A DNA stretch of 64,000 bases from Pseudomonas serboccidentalis (GTDB taxonomy: Bacteria; Pseudomonadota; Gammaproteobacteria; Pseudomonadales; Pseudomonadaceae), in NCBI RefSeq assembly GCF_028830055.1, contig NZ_CP101655.1, forward strand, positions 1,078,132 through 1,142,131. Reading direction: 5' to 3'. The notes beneath the pieces are model-generated. The model was not told the origin of the DNA. It searched no databases and saw only the letters and a list, made by a program, of their open reading frames with translations. The translations under genes were made by a program, and so were the position numbers. This document shows, piece after piece, positions 19,936-26,946 of the stretch; positions within the stretch are counted from its first letter, which is position 1; every line of letters starts with the position of its first letter.

Positions 19936-21132
19936 ATGTCCCTGCCTAGCCTGCGCCTCAAAGCCAATGCCGACCGTCGCCTGCGCAACGGCCACTTGTG
20001 GGTCTACAGCAACGAAATCGATGTGGCCGCCACGCCACTGCACGGCTTCAAGGCCGGCGATCAGGCGATCCTCGAAGCTGCTGGCGGCAAGCCGCTGGGC
20101 ATCGTCGCCATGAGCCCGAACAACCTGATCTGCGCTCGCCTGCTGTCACGCGACATCAAACTGCCGCTGGACAAATCGCTGCTGGTGCATCGCCTGAACG
20201 TCGCCCTGTCGCTGCGCGAACGCCTGTTCGACAAGCCGTTCTACCGCCTGGTCTACGGCGACTCCGACCTGCTGCCGGGTCTGGTGGTCGACCGTTTCGG
20301 CGACATCCTCGTGGTCCAGATCGCCTCGGCGACCATGGAAGCGCATAAAGATGACGTGATCGCCGCTCTGACCCAAGTGCTCAAGCCAAGCGGCATTCTG
20401 TTCAAGAACGATTCCGCTGCCCGTGATGCCGAAGGCCTCAACCGCTACGTCGAAACCGTGTTCGGCCTGGTGCCGGAGTGGGTCGCCCTGGAAGAAAACG
20501 GCGTGAAGTTCGAAGCGCCAGTGATCGAAGGCCAGAAAACCGGCTGGTTCTACGACCACCGCATGAACCGCGCCCGCCTGGCTCCGTACGCCAAAGGCAA
20601 ACGCGTCCTTGACCTCTATAGCTACATCGGTGGCTGGGGCGTGCAGGCGGCGGCGTTCGGCGCCAGTGAAGTGTTCTGCGTCGACGCGTCGGGCTTCGCC
20701 CTCGACGGCGTTGAGCGCAACGCTGCGCTGAACGGCTTCGCCGACAAGATGACCTGCATCGAAGGCGACGTGTTCGAAGCCCTGAAAGAGCTCAAGGCCA
20801 GCGAAGAACGTTTCGACGTGATCGTCGCCGACCCACCGGCGTTCATCAAGCGCAAGAAAGACATGAAAAACGGTGAAGGCGCCTACCGTCGTCTGAACGA
20901 GCAAGCCATGCGCCTGCTCACCAAGGACGGCATCCTGGTCAGTGCTTCGTGCTCGATGCACCTGCCGGAAGACGATCTGCAGAACATCCTGCTGACCAGC
21001 GCCCGCCACCTGGACCGCAACATCCAGATGCTCGAGCGCGGCGGTCAGGGCCCGGACCACCCGGTCCACCCGGCCATCGCCGAAACCCGCTACATCAAGA
21101 GCATCACCTGCCGCCTGCTGCCTAACAGCTGA
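19936..21132 (+). CDS. rlmI: 23S rRNA (cytosine1962-C5)-methyltransferase
   Basis: 398 residues. An N-terminal PUA domain (LRLKANADRRLRNGHLWVYSNEI, then GIVAMSPNNLICARLLS) precedes a central RlmI-specific region and a Rossmann methyltransferase (KRVLDLYSYIGGWGVQAAAFGASEV). The catalytic block is VADPPAFIKRKKD followed by SASCSMHL (Cys). It methylates C1962 of 23S rRNA. It stands alone, followed by a hairpin terminator, and forms the left border of the accessory island. Confidence 0.94.
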   Translation: MSLPSLRLKANADRRLRNGHLWVYSNEIDVAATPLHGFKAGDQAILEAAGGKPLGIVAMSPNNLICARLLSRDIKLPLDKSLLVHRLNVALSLRERLFDKPFYRLVYGDSDLLPGLVVDRFGDILVVQIASATMEAHKDDVIAALTQVLKPSGILFKNDSAARDAEGLNRYVETVFGLVPEWVALEENGVKFEAPVIEGQKTGWFYDHRMNRARLAPYAKGKRVLDLYSYIGGWGVQAAAFGASEVFCVDASGFALDGVERNAALNGFADKMTCIEGDVFEALKELKASEERFDVIVADPPAFIKRKKDMKNGEGAYRRLNEQAMRLLTKDGILVSASCSMHLPEDDLQNILLTSARHLDRNIQMLERGGQGPDHPVHPAIAETRYIKSITCRLLPNS

Positions 21133-21145
21133 TTGGCAAACAAAA

Positions 21146-21167
21146 CGGGGAGCCCAAGGGCTCCCCG
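21146..21167 (+). terminator. rlmI terminator
   Basis: Perfect 10-bp stem CGGGGAGCCC / GGGCTCCCCG with a 2-base loop, 14 bases after the rlmI stop. The T-tract is weak (CTTGCT). Confidence 0.7.
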
Positions 21168-21222
21168 CTTGCTGTCTGGCGATGCAACGTCGCCGAATAT
21201 CTGCTCTCTCTATGCCGTCCTA

Positions 21223-21286
21223 CCTATAACTTCCCAAACAAGTGAAGGAAATTTCCCTGCGCACTTGATTTACCACCCTATAACTT
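21223..21286. repeat. Two direct copies of CCTATAACTT upstream of the island
   Basis: CCTATAACTT occurs at 21223-21232 and 21277-21286, 54 bases apart (about five helical turns), in the AT-rich region upstream of the putative promoter. The spacing puts both copies on the same DNA face, as for an activator or repressor that loops or forms multimers. No regulator gene lies in the island. Confidence 0.45.
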
Positions 21287-21352
21287 ACAAATATTCTTTA
21301 GTCGTGCGACCACTCCGACAAAATTACTGGAATTTTCCTACTTAATAATCAC

Positions 21353-21380
21353 TTGCCAATAACTCATTACAAACTATGAT
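21353..21380 (+). promoter_or_regulatory. Sigma70-like promoter of the peptide / SagB / AurF operon
   Basis: TTGCCA (21353-21358) and TATGAT (21375-21380) are 16 bases apart, 53 bases upstream of the small peptide ATG. The surrounding DNA is AT-rich (24 of 60 bases are G or C in 21361-21420 by hand count). A CCAC-gag-GTGG dyad lies just downstream, in the presumed leader or operator. Confidence 0.6.
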
Positions 21381-21433
21381 TAAGTTGTCACCACGAGGTG
21401 GCACTCACTATCACTGAACATGGAGTTCACACT

Positions 21434-21505
21434 ATGAAAGCAATTACTCTGGAAGCTAACAAAATCGCAAACCTGGCTTTTCTGGTTGCCCCTAAAACCC
21501 GCTAA
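21434..21505 (+). CDS. 23-residue peptide, putative RiPP-type precursor
   Basis: A tiny frame, ATG to TAA, of 23 codons. It starts MKAITLEANK and ends LVAPKTR. GGAG (21422-21425) sits 8 bases before the ATG, a good ribosome binding site, and a promoter-like pair lies upstream. It stands directly before a SagB-type dehydrogenase gene and an AurF-type oxygenase gene, with a strong hairpin between. That layout (short precursor, attenuator, modifying enzymes, exporter) is that of a ribosomally made, modified peptide, in the way PqqA precedes the PQQ enzymes. It has no Cys, Ser or Tyr; the candidate residues for modification are Thr, Asn, Lys, Pro and Arg near the C-terminus. It does not match PqqA, mycofactocin MftA or any precursor I know. 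It is too short for ordinary gene callers. Real translation is unproven. Confidence 0.7.
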   Translation: MKAITLEANKIANLAFLVAPKTR

Positions 21506-21512
21506 GTAAGGT

Positions 21513-21544
21513 GGACGCTGGGGAGTGCCGGCACCCCAGCGTCC
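21513..21544 (+). terminator. Hairpin attenuator between peptide and sagB-like gene
   Basis: A perfect 11-bp stem GGACGCTGGGG / CCCCAGCGTCC with a 10-base loop lies 7 bases after the peptide stop, followed by TTTCGACTTT. The T-tract is short, so partial termination is likely. That would give more peptide mRNA than enzyme mRNA. Confidence 0.7.
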
Positions 21545-21574
21545 TTTCGACTTTGTCCAGAGCGAAGAGCTAAC

Positions 21575-22648
21575 ATGCACATCAATCCTTATTTATTCAT
21601 ACTGCCGCGCACGCCCGGACTTATTGTCTGGAACTACAAAGAACACATTCAATATGAGCTCGATATCGACTACTCATCGAGACTCGCCAAACTTATTCAC
21701 GACCCGAACCAGTTTGACAGCCGGAACACCATAGACATACAACTATTAAACACCAACATACTGACCATTACTAAAATAGACAGTCCCGAATGGGGCTGGG
21801 ATGAACTATCGAAGATTTATCATATCGGCACACAGAACATTCCCTGTGAACAAGTGCCGCAGAATATCCATGAGTGGTCCCGACAATACCTGGATCACTG
21901 CAACGAAGTACTGGCCGCAGAAGCGCCTGACACGGAGCGCCCGGCTCAGAGCGTCGAACGGCGCATCATGCTGCCTGCCCCCATCACATTGACCGAAAGC
22001 AGCCTGGGCAATGCACTGCTGCAGCGAAAGACCTGCCGCTCCTTTACCGGTGAAGCCATCACCCTCGAAACCGTTGCCACGTTGCTGTACCTCTCGCTCG
22101 GTTATCTCGACGAACGGGAAAATGATCGCGATGCGAGCATCGTCCCAGGCCTCGGCGCCCGGCGTAGCAGCCCCTCGGGTGGCGGGTTGAACGCCTGCGA
22201 AGGTTTTGTTCTGGCGCAGAACGTCAGCGGCCTGGAACCCGGCATTTACGCCTATCACCCGGCCGAGCATGCCTTGACGCCGGTCGGCCCTCTGCCCGAG
22301 CCGGCGCTGGGTCATCTGCTGGCCGGGCAACACTTCATCAACAACTTGCCGTTGGGGCTGTTCATCACAGCGCGCTTCGACAAGCTCTGGTGGAAGTACC
22401 AACACTCGCGGGCCTACCGCATGGCCTTCGTCGAAGCCGGCCACCTTTCACAGTCATTCCAGCTGGTGGCCACGGCCCTGGGCCTCAACACCTGGCTGAC
22501 AGGGGCATTCGGTGATCATCAGGTCGAAACCCTGCTGGGTATCGAAGGCAGCGCCGAACAACCGCTGTTCTTTGTCGGCTGTGGCGCGAGCGAAGGCCAG
22601 GCGATGTGTCAGGAAATGCAGGATCTGCTCCGGGAGACGCAAGCATGA
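21575..22648 (+). CDS. SagB/McbC-type flavin dehydrogenase (nitroreductase fold)
   Basis: 357 residues. An N-terminal ~130 residues (LILPRTP..VWNYKEHIQYELD style) match the extra domain of SagB-type proteins, and the FMN nitroreductase fold follows. Marks of the SagB group are RKTCRSF (151-157), RRSSPSGGGLNACEGFV (196-212), GIYAYHPAEHAL (223-234) and the FVEAGHLSQSFQL helix (285-297). Characterised members oxidise azolines in thiazole/oxazole peptides with FMN. No YcaO cyclase is encoded nearby, so the substrate must differ, perhaps the peptide just upstream. The first ~280 bases are AT-rich (21 of 60 G+C in 21721-21780) whereas the rest of the gene is typical of the genome. It overlaps the next gene by 4 bases (ATGA). 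Confidence 0.82.
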   Translation: MHINPYLFILPRTPGLIVWNYKEHIQYELDIDYSSRLAKLIHDPNQFDSRNTIDIQLLNTNILTITKIDSPEWGWDELSKIYHIGTQNIPCEQVPQNIHEWSRQYLDHCNEVLAAEAPDTERPAQSVERRIMLPAPITLTESSLGNALLQRKTCRSFTGEAITLETVATLLYLSLGYLDERENDRDASIVPGLGARRSSPSGGGLNACEGFVLAQNVSGLEPGIYAYHPAEHALTPVGPLPEPALGHLLAGQHFINNLPLGLFITARFDKLWWKYQHSRAYRMAFVEAGHLSQSFQLVATALGLNTWLTGAFGDHQVETLLGIEGSAEQPLFFVGCGASEGQAMCQEMQDLLRETQA

Positions 22649-23622
22649 CGGCACCACTGGCAGATCCATCTCCGGCACCCGTTTCCTGGGCGCACCGATT
22701 TACCCTCGGCGACTGGAACAGCCACGCCTCGGTACGCGCCAGCCACCACGACTACCTGTTGCCACCCGACGTGCAGCAACAGCTGCAAACCCGTTTCTGG
22801 TTCCCGCCGGCCTTTCTGCCGTACTTGGCGCACCCTGCCATCCAGGCCGCAGGTGCAACTGTCATGCACCGCCTGACCGCTAATCATCTGGTGCATTTTC
22901 TCGACTACACCACCCTGCTCGAACACCGCATCGTCAACCGGGCGGTGGAAACCATCGTCCACGGCGAATTGCCTGTCTACGTCCCGCCACGGATGAAAAC
23001 TGCAGCGCTGCAGCTCTATACGGATGAGGGCTACCACGCACTGTTTTCTGATCGACTCGCCAGCCAGATCGCTGACTTGCACGGTTTCAGCGCACGTCCG
23101 GTGATGCCTTTGCGAATCACCCGAATGAACGCCCTGATTGCCCGCACTGCCGAAAACAACCGCCCGCTGGCATGGTTTCTGCTCGGCTTCGTCTCGGAAA
23201 CCATCATCGCCCGGGAGCTGCTGGAGGTCTGCCGCGAAACGCTGGTCACCAGCGTGAACGACATGCTGCGCGATCACCTGAGTGATGAGGCCCGCCACAG
23301 TCGCTACTTTTGCGAGGTGTTCCATTATCTGTGGCTGACCCTGAACAGCCGCCAGCGCACCTTCACCGCCCGAACCCTGGTGGATGTCATCGGGATTTTC
23401 TTCGAAGTCGATGAACGCTGGCTGCGGCAGAGCCTGCGGGACGCCGGCATTGCCGACGTCGACGTGGCGCAGATCGTCGGCGGTCTGGCGACCGCGCAGG
23501 CCAACCGGCAACGAGCACGATCAGGTGCCGGCGCCACGCTGCAGGCACTGGAGAAGGCAGGTTTCTTTGCGCTGCCACATAACCGCAAACTTTTTGCCAA
23601 GGCAGGACTGATCGATGAATAA
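22645..23622 (+). CDS. AurF-type diiron oxygenase
   Basis: 325 residues. All seven iron ligands of p-aminobenzoate N-oxygenase AurF can be placed with matching spacing: Glu93 (LLEHR), Glu128 and His131 (TDEGYH), Glu185 (VSETII), and His211, Glu215 and His218 (HLSDEARH). AurF-like enzymes use a peroxo-diiron centre to oxidise amines to hydroxylamines or nitro groups, or to hydroxylate C-H bonds. The true start is the ATG at 22645, inside the sagB stop; an upstream ATG at 22606 would overlap more. It overlaps the MFS gene by 8 bases. In this operon it may act on the 23-residue peptide or on a piece of it; that is inference. Confidence 0.85.
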   Translation: MTAPLADPSPAPVSWAHRFTLGDWNSHASVRASHHDYLLPPDVQQQLQTRFWFPPAFLPYLAHPAIQAAGATVMHRLTANHLVHFLDYTTLLEHRIVNRAVETIVHGELPVYVPPRMKTAALQLYTDEGYHALFSDRLASQIADLHGFSARPVMPLRITRMNALIARTAENNRPLAWFLLGFVSETIIARELLEVCRETLVTSVNDMLRDHLSDEARHSRYFCEVFHYLWLTLNSRQRTFTARTLVDVIGIFFEVDERWLRQSLRDAGIADVDVAQIVGGLATAQANRQRARSGAGATLQALEKAGFFALPHNRKLFAKAGLIDE

Positions 23623-24847
23623 CCGAGCGCACACAGGCAATGCCCGACAACGCCGCGGCGCCGTCAGTCTGCTGCTGGCCATGGTCCTGCTTGGGGTGTT
23701 CCCGCTGGACGTGCTGCTGCCCTCGTTCCCTGCATTGGCCGAACACTTTCGCAGCACCCCGTCGGACATTGCGCTGTCGATCAGCCTGTTCGCCGTGGGG
23801 ATTGCGTTTGCACAGCTGTTGATCGGGCCACTCTCCGATGTGATCGGGCGCAAAGGCCTGCTGCTCGCAGGCATGGGGGTGTCGATGCTGGGAGCACTCG
23901 GCTGCACCATGACCCGCGACTACACCCTGTTCCTGGCCTTCAGGTTGTTGCAGGCACTGGGTTGCGGCTGCTTCGTGCTGTCTCAGGCGCTGGTCCAGGA
24001 CCTGTTCGACGGCGAGGAGCGCGATCGCTTGCGCATCCTGATGGTGACCGCGACGGGGATCTTCATTTCAGTGTCGCCGCTGGCCGGCACCTTTCTGCAG
24101 GCCACTCTCGGCTGGCGTGGCAGTTTCTGGGTGTTCACCGCACTGGCAGCGGCGGTGCTGATCAAGGCCTGGTTTTTTCTGGATGACAGTCATCGCGTCG
24201 TCCGCAACACGCCCCTGAACTTCCTCAATGCGTATCGCCGGGTGCTGGGCGATTTCGAGTTCGTCGGTTACTGGCTCATTTCCGCGTTTGCGTTTGCCTG
24301 CCACTTCTCCTTCATCGTCATCTCACCGCTGATTTTCATGGATCAACTGCAGCTGTCGGCCTATGAGTTCTCGCTGATTCTGCTGGTCTATGGTGCGGCC
24401 TATATCGTTGGCGGTATTGCCGCTGCGCTGTTGAGCCGACGTATCAGCTCCGTGCAACAGATCGTCGCGGGGTTGAGCCTGATCCTGCTGGCGGGGCTGG
24501 TGATGCTGTTCATGACACAGCACTTCGCGCTCTCGCCAGCCACGGTGCTGATTCCGATGCTGATCTGTACCGCCGGCACCACTATTGCGCGGCCGGCCGC
24601 CACCTCTCGAGCCATGGGCCTGTTCCCGGAAAACGCCGGTACTTGCGCCTCGGCCGGCAGCACGATCATTTTCATCTGCGGCGGATTGATCAGCGCGCTG
24701 ATCAGCCTGAGCCCGAGCAACCTGCAAGCGACCCTCGGGTACTGCTTTGTCCTGCTCAGTTGCATCGCACTGGCCTTGAACAAGCGAATCAGCCAGCGCG
24801 CCAGAGTCCTCGAAAGCAGCGCCAACGCCACCACGACCGGCGATTGA
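23615..24847 (+). CDS. MFS drug-resistance type exporter (Bcr/CflA-like)
   Basis: 410 residues with about 12 membrane helices. MFS motif A appears as GPLSDVIGRKGLLLAG (71-86) and the DVLLPSFPALAEHF segment after TM1 is typical of the Bcr/CflA 12-TM drug:H+ antiporter group. It overlaps the oxygenase gene by 8 bases, so it is the last gene of the island operon and the probable exporter of its product, or self-resistance. A short Ser/Ala/Thr-rich tail ends the protein. Confidence 0.87.
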   Translation: MNNRAHTGNARQRRGAVSLLLAMVLLGVFPLDVLLPSFPALAEHFRSTPSDIALSISLFAVGIAFAQLLIGPLSDVIGRKGLLLAGMGVSMLGALGCTMTRDYTLFLAFRLLQALGCGCFVLSQALVQDLFDGEERDRLRILMVTATGIFISVSPLAGTFLQATLGWRGSFWVFTALAAAVLIKAWFFLDDSHRVVRNTPLNFLNAYRRVLGDFEFVGYWLISAFAFACHFSFIVISPLIFMDQLQLSAYEFSLILLVYGAAYIVGGIAAALLSRRISSVQQIVAGLSLILLAGLVMLFMTQHFALSPATVLIPMLICTAGTTIARPAATSRAMGLFPENAGTCASAGSTIIFICGGLISALISLSPSNLQATLGYCFVLLSCIALALNKRISQRARVLESSANATTTGD

Positions 24848-25104
24848 GCCTGCCGGTCGTCATGCCACACGCACCGTCGGCACTGGAACAATGCTTTGCG
24901 CCATTCCCTCCAGACGCCAGCGGTGTAGAATCGGCTGATTCATCGCCATTCATCCCCCGGCGGGTTTATGAGCTCAGGCTGAGGCAAGCGGCGATCCCGC
25001 AAAGTCATCGGCCACTTCCGGACACACGGCCATTTCTGAGTGTTCCAGACGTCAATAGAAGCTCACTTCCCTTTTGATACCTGATTAGCCGCCCGGAGTG
25101 CTCC
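24848..25104. other. Region upstream of ilvD
   Basis: 257 bases without a gene between the island exporter and ilvD. It marks the right border of the accessory island. A TAGAAT at 24926-24931 could be a -10 element but has no good -35. No integrase, IS end or direct repeat was seen. Confidence 0.5.
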
Positions 25105-26946
25105 ATGCCAGATTACCGTTCGAAAACATCCACCCACGGCCGCAACATGGCCGGCGCCCGCGCACTGTGGCGCGCCACCGGGATGAAAGATGACGACTTC
25201 AAGAAGCCGATCATCGCCATTGCCAACTCCTTCACCCAGTTCGTTCCGGGCCACGTGCACCTCAAAGACCTCGGTCAACTGGTGGCCCGTGAAATCGAAC
25301 GCGCCGGTGGCGTCGCGAAAGAATTCAACACCATTGCCGTGGACGACGGCATCGCCATGGGCCACGACGGCATGCTCTATTCGCTGCCGAGCCGCGAGAT
25401 CATCGCCGACTCCGTCGAGTACATGGTCAACGCCCACTGCGCCGACGCCATCGTCTGCATTTCCAACTGCGACAAGATCACCCCGGGCATGCTGATGGCG
25501 GCTCTGCGCCTGAATATTCCGGTGATCTTCGTGTCCGGCGGTCCGATGGAAGCCGGCAAGACCAAACTCGCTTCCCACGGCCTCGACCTCGTCGACGCCA
25601 TGGTGATCGCCGCCGACTCCAGCGCTTCTGACGAGAAAGTCGCCGAGTACGAGCGCAGCGCCTGCCCGACCTGCGGTTCGTGCTCCGGCATGTTCACCGC
25701 CAACTCGATGAACTGCCTGACCGAAGCCCTGGGCCTCGCCCTGCCAGGCAACGGTTCGACCCTGGCCACCCACAGCGACCGCGAACAGCTGTTCCTGCAG
25801 GCCGGCCGCACCATCGTCGAGCTGTGCAAGCGTTACTACGGCGAGAACGACGAATCGGTGCTGCCACGCAACATCGCCAACTTCAAGGCGTTCGAAAACG
25901 CGATGATGCTCGACATCGCCATGGGCGGTTCGACCAACACCATCCTGCACTTGCTGGCTGCCGCCCAGGAAGCCGAGATCGATTTCGACCTGCGCGACAT
26001 CGACCGTCTTTCGCGCAGCGTGCCGCAACTGTGCAAGGTCGCGCCGAACATCCAGAAGTACCACATGGAAGACGTGCACCGCGCCGGCGGCATCTTCAGC
26101 ATTCTCGGTTCGCTGGCCCGTGGCGGCCTGCTGCACACCGACCTGCCGACCGTGCACAGCCGCAGCATGGAAGAAGCCATCGCCAAGTGGGACATCACCC
26201 AGACTACCGATGAAGCGGTGCACCACTTCTTCAAGGCAGGCCCTGCCGGCATCCCGACCCAGACGGCGTTCAGCCAGTCGACCCGTTGGGAAACCCTGGA
26301 CGATGACCGTGAAAACGGCTGCATCCGCAGCTTCGAACACGCTTACTCGAAAGAAGGTGGCCTGGCCGTGCTGTACGGCAACATCGCCCTCGACGGCTGC
26401 GTGGTGAAAACCGCCGGCGTCGACGAGTCGATCCACGTCTTCGAAGGCAACGCGAAGATCTTCGAAAGCCAGGACAGCGCCGTGCGCGGCATCCTCGCCG
26501 ACGAAGTGAAGGAAGGCGACATCGTCATCATTCGCTACGAGGGTCCGAAAGGCGGCCCGGGCATGCAGGAAATGCTCTACCCGACGTCGTACCTGAAATC
26601 CAAAGGTCTGGGCAAAGCTTGCGCACTGCTCACCGACGGTCGTTTCTCCGGCGGTACTTCGGGCCTGTCCATCGGTCACGCTTCGCCAGAGGCTGCGGCC
26701 GGCGGCGCAATCGGTCTGGTGCAGGACGGCGACAAAGTGCTGATCGACATTCCGAACCGCTCGATCAACCTGTTGGTCAGCGATGAAGAACTGGCTGCAC
26801 GCCGGGTCGAGCAGGACAAGAAAGGCTGGAAACCGGTCGAGCAGCGTCCACGCAAAGTGACCACCGCCCTCAAGGCCTACGCCCTGCTGGCGACCAGCGC
26901 CGACAAGGGTGCCGTGCGTAACAAGGCGATGCTCGACGGGCTGTAA
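25105..26946 (+). CDS. ilvD: Dihydroxy-acid dehydratase
   Basis: 613 residues, long IlvD form. Fe-S ligands and motifs are [30 protein letters not shown] and the substrate-binding [20 protein letters not shown] near the C-terminus. It dehydrates 2,3-dihydroxy-isovalerate and -methylvalerate to the 2-keto acids in valine and isoleucine synthesis. It is followed by a strong terminator. The opening [19 protein letters not shown] is the standard N-terminus. Confidence 0.98.

Follow-up and report, generated by a model that had tools for sequence, protein, structure and literature searches.

A short peptide gene linked to SagB- and AurF-type enzymes in Pseudomonas probably encodes the precursor of a modified peptide

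In Pseudomonas serboccidentalis, a 23-codon gene stands in front of genes for a SagB-type dehydrogenase, an AurF-type oxygenase and a major facilitator superfamily (MFS) exporter, between rlmI and ilvD, which raises the question of what a tiny peptide does beside two oxidative enzymes. The operon was analyzed within a window of 64,000 nucleotides (positions 1,078,132 to 1,142,131 of NZ_CP101655.1, the single contig of 5,997,322 bases that forms the host genome). The SagB and AurF genes overlap by 4 bases, and the AurF and MFS genes by 8 bases. A preliminary description of this DNA had proposed that the peptide is modified by the two enzymes and exported. The promoter-like pair, 23-codon frame, ribosome site, hairpin and three overlapping genes on which it drew are all present (Table 1), and its family assignments were confirmed by scores above cut-off for SagB (TIGR03605), AurF (PF11583) and MFS (PF07690). 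We consider it probable that the operon specifies a pathway of the ribosomally synthesized and post-translationally modified peptide (RiPP) type, in which the SagB protein docks the N-terminus of the peptide and oxidizes it near Asn-13, the AurF protein oxygenates it, and the MFS protein exports the product and protects the producer.

Short frames were surveyed in the 300 bases upstream of SagB at 128 loci with an AurF relative (L003–L132 minus L033, which is without AurF, and L051, which is without a SagB match); the loci came from overlapping collections and are not independent of each other. A frame of the pattern drawn from the first loci was present at 126 loci and gave 68 distinct peptides. 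The pattern itself requires Glu at position 7 and Asn at position 13, and the misses were L041, where the contig edge cuts the locus, and L046, which has a broken SagB and Gln at position 7. As only these two of the 128 loci were missed, the invariance of the two residues was not made by the search pattern. Among 30 of the 68 peptides, picked for diversity, Met-1, Glu-7 and Asn-13 are invariant and Lys-2 and Ala-12 nearly invariant, and the tail past residue 18 drifts in sequence and length. The preliminary description had expected a conserved ending such as PKTR; the C-terminus proved instead to be the most variable part. The peptides are 21–26 residues long, and that of the window has two Thr residues and neither Cys nor Ser. 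The 23-codon form occurs at 114 of the 126 loci, and across its 87 distinct nucleotide versions the ratio of nonsynonymous to synonymous polymorphism (pN/pS) is 0.40 in frame and rises to 1.01 and 2.99 when the frame is shifted; a GGAG lies inside the final 16 bases of 102 of 107 distinct upstream stretches. Judged from these sequence comparisons, the frame is conserved as protein-coding sequence. Locus L046 (G006:C95:25000-31000) has the sole peptide seen with Gln for Glu-7. An essential role for Glu-7, considered on account of that locus, was weakened, since L046 is a single case and four of four peptides of a sister operon type (type B, below) have Gln there.

The peptide and the enzymes are linked across the genus. 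A profile built from 30 peptides was run over 398 Pseudomonas genomes, some of which had supplied the profile. At E <= 9.4e-6 it had 107 hits, in 105 genomes, and the next hit came only at 0.008. AurF relatives with E < 1e-20 were present in 104 genomes, and any AurF-family match at E <= 0.001 in 275. Peptide and AurF occurred together in 103 genomes, the peptide only in two, AurF only in one and neither in 292, with AurF within 2.6 kb of 104 of the 107 peptide hits. The hits arise partly by construction because the profile was partly built from the same genomes, whereas the near-absence of orphan peptides does not. The three mismatching genomes contain decayed operons: G159 has the peptide and MFS genes, a SagB match that spans just 123 residues and no AurF; G308 has the same two genes and matches neither SagB nor AurF; and G031 is left with MFS and a remnant of AurF. 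Broken enzymes accompany the peptide also at L042 and L044, both among the 126 loci. Among the best 80 of 143 AurF loci, all 80 are named Pseudomonas, and the three operon proteins co-occur with both flanking genes in 79; the remaining locus, L095, stops short of the downstream gene. SagB–AurF pairs devoid of a conserved short frame, which would speak against the proposal, were looked for, and the idea survived. With the frame at 126 of 128 loci and AurF in 103 of 105 peptide genomes, a RiPP-type precursor role of the peptide is well supported as a reading of sequence. One further peptide hit lies on a 50,911-base contig (G189:C6, locus L041) that begins with AurF and MFS and has the peptide close to its end, a layout that may reflect an operon spanning the ends of a circular plasmid; the chromosomal copy in that genome, L042, is broken.

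The dehydrogenase scores 117.4 bits against the SagB peptide dehydrogenase domain model TIGR03605 (cut-off 78.4), and Pfam and NCBIfam place it as nitroreductase/SagB. The model for putative peptide maturation dehydrogenases, TIGR04511, gives 170.8 bits, below its cut-off of 240, and leaves the first 115 residues unaligned; systems of that family likewise include a SagB-related dehydrogenase annotated for peptide maturation. Among 120 of 483 listed relatives the usual names are 'SagB family peptide dehydrogenase', 'SagB-type dehydrogenase family enzyme' and 'SagB/ThcOx family dehydrogenase'. The best Foldseek matches of the protein are 5lq4 and 8pz5 (E 3.6e-16 to 8e-16), which belong with ThcOx, a cyanobactin oxidase, and related dehydrogenases. 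Its N-terminal domain has a predicted beta3-alpha topology and aligned to the RiPP recognition element (RRE)-type domains of ThcOx and BmdC with a large root-mean-square deviation (16–18 Å); the domain is thus predicted to resemble the leader-binding domains of those proteins. ThcOx and the SagB/McbC proteins of thiazole/oxazole-modified microcin (TOMM) systems are likewise flavin mononucleotide (FMN)-dependent oxidases of nitroreductase fold with a WKY motif, and their one or more N-terminal RRE-type domains may have a counterpart here. At the class level, the SagB profile matched 26 of 369 genomes at E <= 1e-20, the window's own among them, and 24 of the 25 other matches begin only at profile position 117, which is the catalytic domain. 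The operon may also occur outside Pseudomonas.

The oxygenase reaches 64.3 bits with PF11583 (cut-off 29.6), and both its fold and its diiron ligand positions, like its family score, fit the AurF family, with Glu-93, Glu-128, His-131, Glu-185, His-211, Glu-215 and His-218 forming what we take to be the ligand set. The model for 4-aminobenzoate N-oxygenase AurF itself, NF045603, gives 64.7 bits, below its cut-off of 620. The closest named relative, among the best 80 of 143, is that of P. koreensis DSM 16610 (94% identical). The operon enzymes keep their catalytic residues and, by prediction, their folds. AurF and CmlI, which act on arylamines, share 19–24% identity with the window protein, and no arylamine is evident here. 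The arylamine substrates of those two enzymes are in keeping with a different role for the peptide, as a microprotein that forms a subunit of SagB or AurF or activates one of them, the enzymes acting on a free metabolite; the strict linkage of the peptide to the enzymes, its shortness and its high conservation without a Cys/Ser-rich core also accord with such a role. We regard it as quite unlikely, however, as the C-terminus is free to drift and a cassette at the 5' side that has a hairpin to itself would suggest excess peptide. Moreover, the nearest SagB relatives of the same architecture, ThcOx and BmdC, take ribosomal or carrier-bound peptides (PMC8795117).

The region around the peptide gene holds a hairpin and a palindrome that bear on another explanation. 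Between the peptide and SagB genes, separated by 55–88 nt across loci, lies a hairpin whose stem pairs 21513–21523 with 21534–21544; folding of 21380–21600 gave z = -3.7, and the gap forms a hairpin in all 22 loci folded singly. Covariation was counted for this named structure on 36 rows chosen by hand from 45, the nine dropped being the most diverged (L034, L038, L040, L042), two with an extra loop base (L107, L117) and three near-duplicates (L053, L076, L082). In the 36 rows, 9 of 11 stem pairs vary in both partners and 90.9% of cells are paired; the covariation score was reached by none of 500 shuffles and fell from 0.396 to at most 0.151 when the partner was slid by 1–3 columns. An RNAalifold run on a wider, poorer alignment, made from 45 of the 106 distinct intergenic sequences, returned three pairs and no covariation. 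In the most diverged operons the hairpin is present with a different sequence, and alignment fails there because of that difference. Two occurrences of the loop AGTGCCGGC were counted in the window against 1.42 expected, which does not make it rare, and an Rfam search of 20500–25500 had no matches. The promoter scan of 21100–21700 found two sites over both strands versus 0.5 expected; 104 of 107 distinct upstream stretches hold a loose TTGNNN/TANNNT pair, counted without a shuffle control, and 95 of 97 hold a stem of at least 5 pairs at the presumed transcript start, taken as the best of a scan without a chance control. The palindrome there, TGTCAC...GTGACA, recurs upstream in relatives with some compensating changes.

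These elements could instead belong to a regulatory leader peptide, the main rival to a precursor, in which ribosome stalling or attenuation, together with the hairpin, would control how strongly SagB and AurF, as the enzymes of a small-molecule pathway, are expressed. The place of the frame, 55–88 nt ahead of SagB and separated from it by a covarying hairpin, the runs of T past the stem in some relatives and the second palindrome at the presumed transcript start are all as that explanation would have them. Yet conservation lies in the middle of the peptide, at Glu-7 and Asn-13, and not at the C-terminal end where stalling would occur, which disfavors regulation of this kind. Length also varies, from 21–26 residues here to 33–58 in the sister operons described below; a run of a single regulatory codon is absent; and the presence of a RiPP-type SagB that has an RRE-like domain would have to be coincidental. 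The preliminary description had implied that the hairpin is an attenuator, a label without support since the scan of 21100–21700 found no U-tract terminator. Leader-peptide regulation is therefore considered unlikely, and the hairpin may rather be a transcript-end or processing hairpin that lets the precursor exceed the enzyme.

The genome has a second SagB operon (L033:4183-10163; G000:C1, ~5321180-5327160, with SagB near C1:5321400). In this type B order, a short peptide is followed by SagB, a tetratricopeptide repeat (TPR)-methyltransferase, a NodU-type carbamoyltransferase and MFS, and its SagB is 33–36% identical to that of the window, whose operon is termed type A. A search of the 398 genomes with the second SagB (E <= 1e-62) found ten genomes, of which four were type B, two type C and four had the type A SagB as the match. 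Type C (G067 and G236; L174:2500-6663, L175:2893-7100) has a 56–58-residue peptide frame, SagB, carbamoyltransferase and MFS. Partner genes were confirmed by Pfam in all six type B and C loci, which carry the carbamoyltransferase in place of AurF, and in each a short frame with a ribosome site lies upstream of SagB and is conserved within its type. The peptides of these loci, examples of which begin MRKANLQTRLTALSNDAY... and MKRVTIEPTLNNQSNDAY..., share with those of type A a start of M-[KR]-x-[AIV]-x-[LIM]-[EQ] and, further on, an [AS]-N. Taken together in one pattern, which was drawn after the peptides had been seen, these motifs matched none of 2974 background short frames, and the leader part alone matched one. 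The I-x-L-E box at residues 4–7 of the type A peptide is reminiscent of the FNLD box in leaders of the nisin type. All three operon types have in common SagB, an MFS gene and a peptide with the putative docking box at its N-terminus and an Asn.

How the operon relates to established classes was examined by searching for their hallmark enzymes. A gene-encoded candidate precursor under protein-level selection stands beside putative modification enzymes, as in RiPP systems generally. The preliminary description had stated that YcaO, LanB, radical-SAM and DUF692 enzymes are missing; this held within the window for all except LanB, for which the search had no match and was uninformative because its controls were silent too. 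The only YcaO match of the genome, at C1:5129223, is ~4 Mb from the operon, two multinuclear non-heme iron oxidase (MNIO, DUF692) matches at C1:621214 and C1:1446705 lie at least 345 kb off, and all 16 radical-SAM matches fall beyond the window, the closest being ~25 kb from the operon. PqqD sits with a radical-SAM gene at C1:898285-899008, ~200 kb away, unlike a pyrroloquinoline quinone (PQQ)-type locus, in which the radical-SAM protein PqqE and its RRE, PqqD, are encoded next to the peptide. ThcOx oxidizes azolines made by YcaO; unlike those and other TOMM or linear azole systems, the window has no YcaO in the cluster and no Cys/Ser/Thr-rich core in the peptide. The bacillamide oxidase BmdC (7ly4/7ly7) is of similar length and combines an Ox domain with a single RRE-like domain, as predicted for the SagB protein here; its substrate is a thiazoline bound to a nonribosomal peptide synthetase, and its RRE-like domain is reported to be a likely relic (PMC8795117).

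Two Pseudomonas clusters were considered as the same system and rejected. The gvg cluster of P. fluorescens WH6, for 4-formylaminooxyvinylglycine (FVG), recalls types B and C: a small frame, gvgB, is required for activity and neighbors the heme-oxygenase-domain gene gvgC, the NodU-type carbamoyltransferase gene gvgF and exporters (PMC8064604, PMC8067088). Unlike the peptides here, gvgB is lysine-rich, and neither SagB nor AurF was noted in the gvg gene table. The OS3 cluster of Pseudomonas sp. Os17 is described with a SagB-type protein beside a small precursor and with no sagC or sagD homologue found (PMC7726476); as described there, it differs in its 85-residue folded precursor, 650-residue SagB protein, acetyltransferase and HEXXH protein, and in having no AurF. 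The main text of an RRE survey (PMC12710340) contains neither 'Pseudomonas' nor 'AurF', and no published description of the operon was recognized in the literature searched, most subscription papers lying outside that search. A small molecule might also be built at the C-terminus of the peptide as a scaffold, in the manner of pearlins of the 3-thiaglutamate type. Such systems occur in Pseudomonas and a short conserved peptide accompanied by oxidative enzymes would suit one, but the C-terminal residues vary most and no peptide aminoacyl-tRNA ligase-like gene was seen among the rlmI–ilvD frames, read by eye with no profile search; this origin seems very improbable.

The exporter, beside its MFS_1 match, scores 192.1 bits with TIGR00710 (Bcr/CflA), below the cut-off of 200.9. 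Relatives at E <= 1e-75 were found in 214 of the 398 genomes, the lower end of which probably includes paralogues. Twenty exporter loci were picked by hand from the upper part of the list (55–66% identity) in genomes without peptide and AurF, with several others skipped. At 18 of them (L192, L195–L211) MFS stands alone between rlmI and ilvD without a SagB or AurF match; L193 has an AurF remnant and L194 is without the flanks. The MFS frame is open in all 20 (396–453 residues). On an MFS tree of 61 rows, comprising 38 operon loci and 23 others (the 20 picked loci plus G031, G159 and G308), the operon label switches seven times, at least six of the switches being forced by supported branches. 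Two histories would explain this: repeated loss of the enzymes while the exporter was retained, or their gain next to an exporter already in place. Under either history the exporter seems to serve a purpose of its own, as expected of resistance.

Under the proposed RiPP-type pathway, the 23-residue precursor would be translated from a short stretch of transcript that a hairpin flanks on the 3' side. The I-x-L-E box would dock in the form of a strand on the RRE-like domain that SagB is predicted to have, and SagB, as an FMN dehydrogenase, would oxidize the peptide at or next to Asn-13; this site is favored because Asn is the core feature, and SagB the sole enzyme, common to the three operon types. 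The AurF-like diiron enzyme might then oxygenate a nitrogen, and our guess is that this is N-oxygenation of the Asn-13 amide, the weakest step of the scheme. A housekeeping protease is assumed to trim the product, and the MFS protein would export it and protect the producer, in keeping with the 18 of 20 enzyme-less loci that retain an open MFS frame alone. The simplest reading of the other enzymes is that they tailor the product. Several results weigh against this scheme. The type A peptide profile is not significant on type B and C peptides (best rank 13, 1.8 bits), and no protease was seen in the operon. The PqqD model PF05402, run on the host genome, matches the PqqD locus only and not the SagB domain, and four N-terminal SagB pieces matched no Pfam model at cut-off (DUF6819, E 0.04–0.08 only), so that the RRE assignment draws on predicted topology and alignments of large deviation. 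The MFS pattern could, in addition, stem from an exporter that was resident beforehand and beside which the enzymes arrived later.

Table 1. Positions of the operon features and flanking genes in the window.
Feature	Position	Strand	Basis or reading
rlmI, upstream flank of operon	19936-21132		gene name from protein reading
Sigma-70-like promoter pair TTGCCA-16-TATGAT	21353..21380	+	promoter scan
Palindrome TGTCACC-ACGA-GGTGGCA, presumed transcript start	21386..21403	+	hairpin of the 5' untranslated region or operator
Ribosome-binding GGAG	21422..21425	+	sequence; relatives' upstream stretches
23-codon precursor-like peptide gene, MKAITLEANKIANLAFLVAPKTR	21434..21505	+	profile, pN/pS, linkage across genomes
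Covarying hairpin, loop AGTGCCGGCA, peptide–SagB gap	21513..21544	+	folding, covariation
SagB/McbC-type FMN dehydrogenase, 357 aa; predicted N-terminal RRE-like domain (~residues 1-65), Lys274-Tyr275	21575..22648	+	family profile, fold prediction
AurF/CmlI-type diiron N-oxygenase-like protein, 325 aa	22645..23622	+	profile, fold, ligand positions
Bcr/CflA-like MFS exporter, 410 aa; probable self-protection	23615..24847	+	profile; exporter-only loci
ilvD, downstream flank of operon	25105-26946		gene name from protein reading

Beyond the pathway itself, it is possible, though short of an even chance in our estimate, that the operons form a new RiPP class in which an RRE-fused SagB acts alone, with no YcaO, radical-SAM or MNIO enzyme, at a conserved Asn and the tailoring enzymes are interchangeable: AurF would serve in type A as a peptide N-oxygenase that yields, for instance, N-hydroxylated or further oxidized Asn, and methyl- or carbamoyltransferases would act in types B and C. 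The product would be a secreted inhibitor, against which many pseudomonads have retained the exporter alone for resistance. If the pathway is as proposed, a four-gene cassette carried by ~26% of the sampled Pseudomonas (103 of 398 genomes) would make a compound by peptide chemistry that was not found described, and would pair a SagB enzyme with an enzyme of the arylamine-oxygenase type on a ribosomal peptide. The tiny size of the cassette would make substrate, enzyme order and product directly testable, the exporter-only strains would be predicted to be resistant, and the sister operons of the genus, one of them within the same genome, would serve as parallel test cases.

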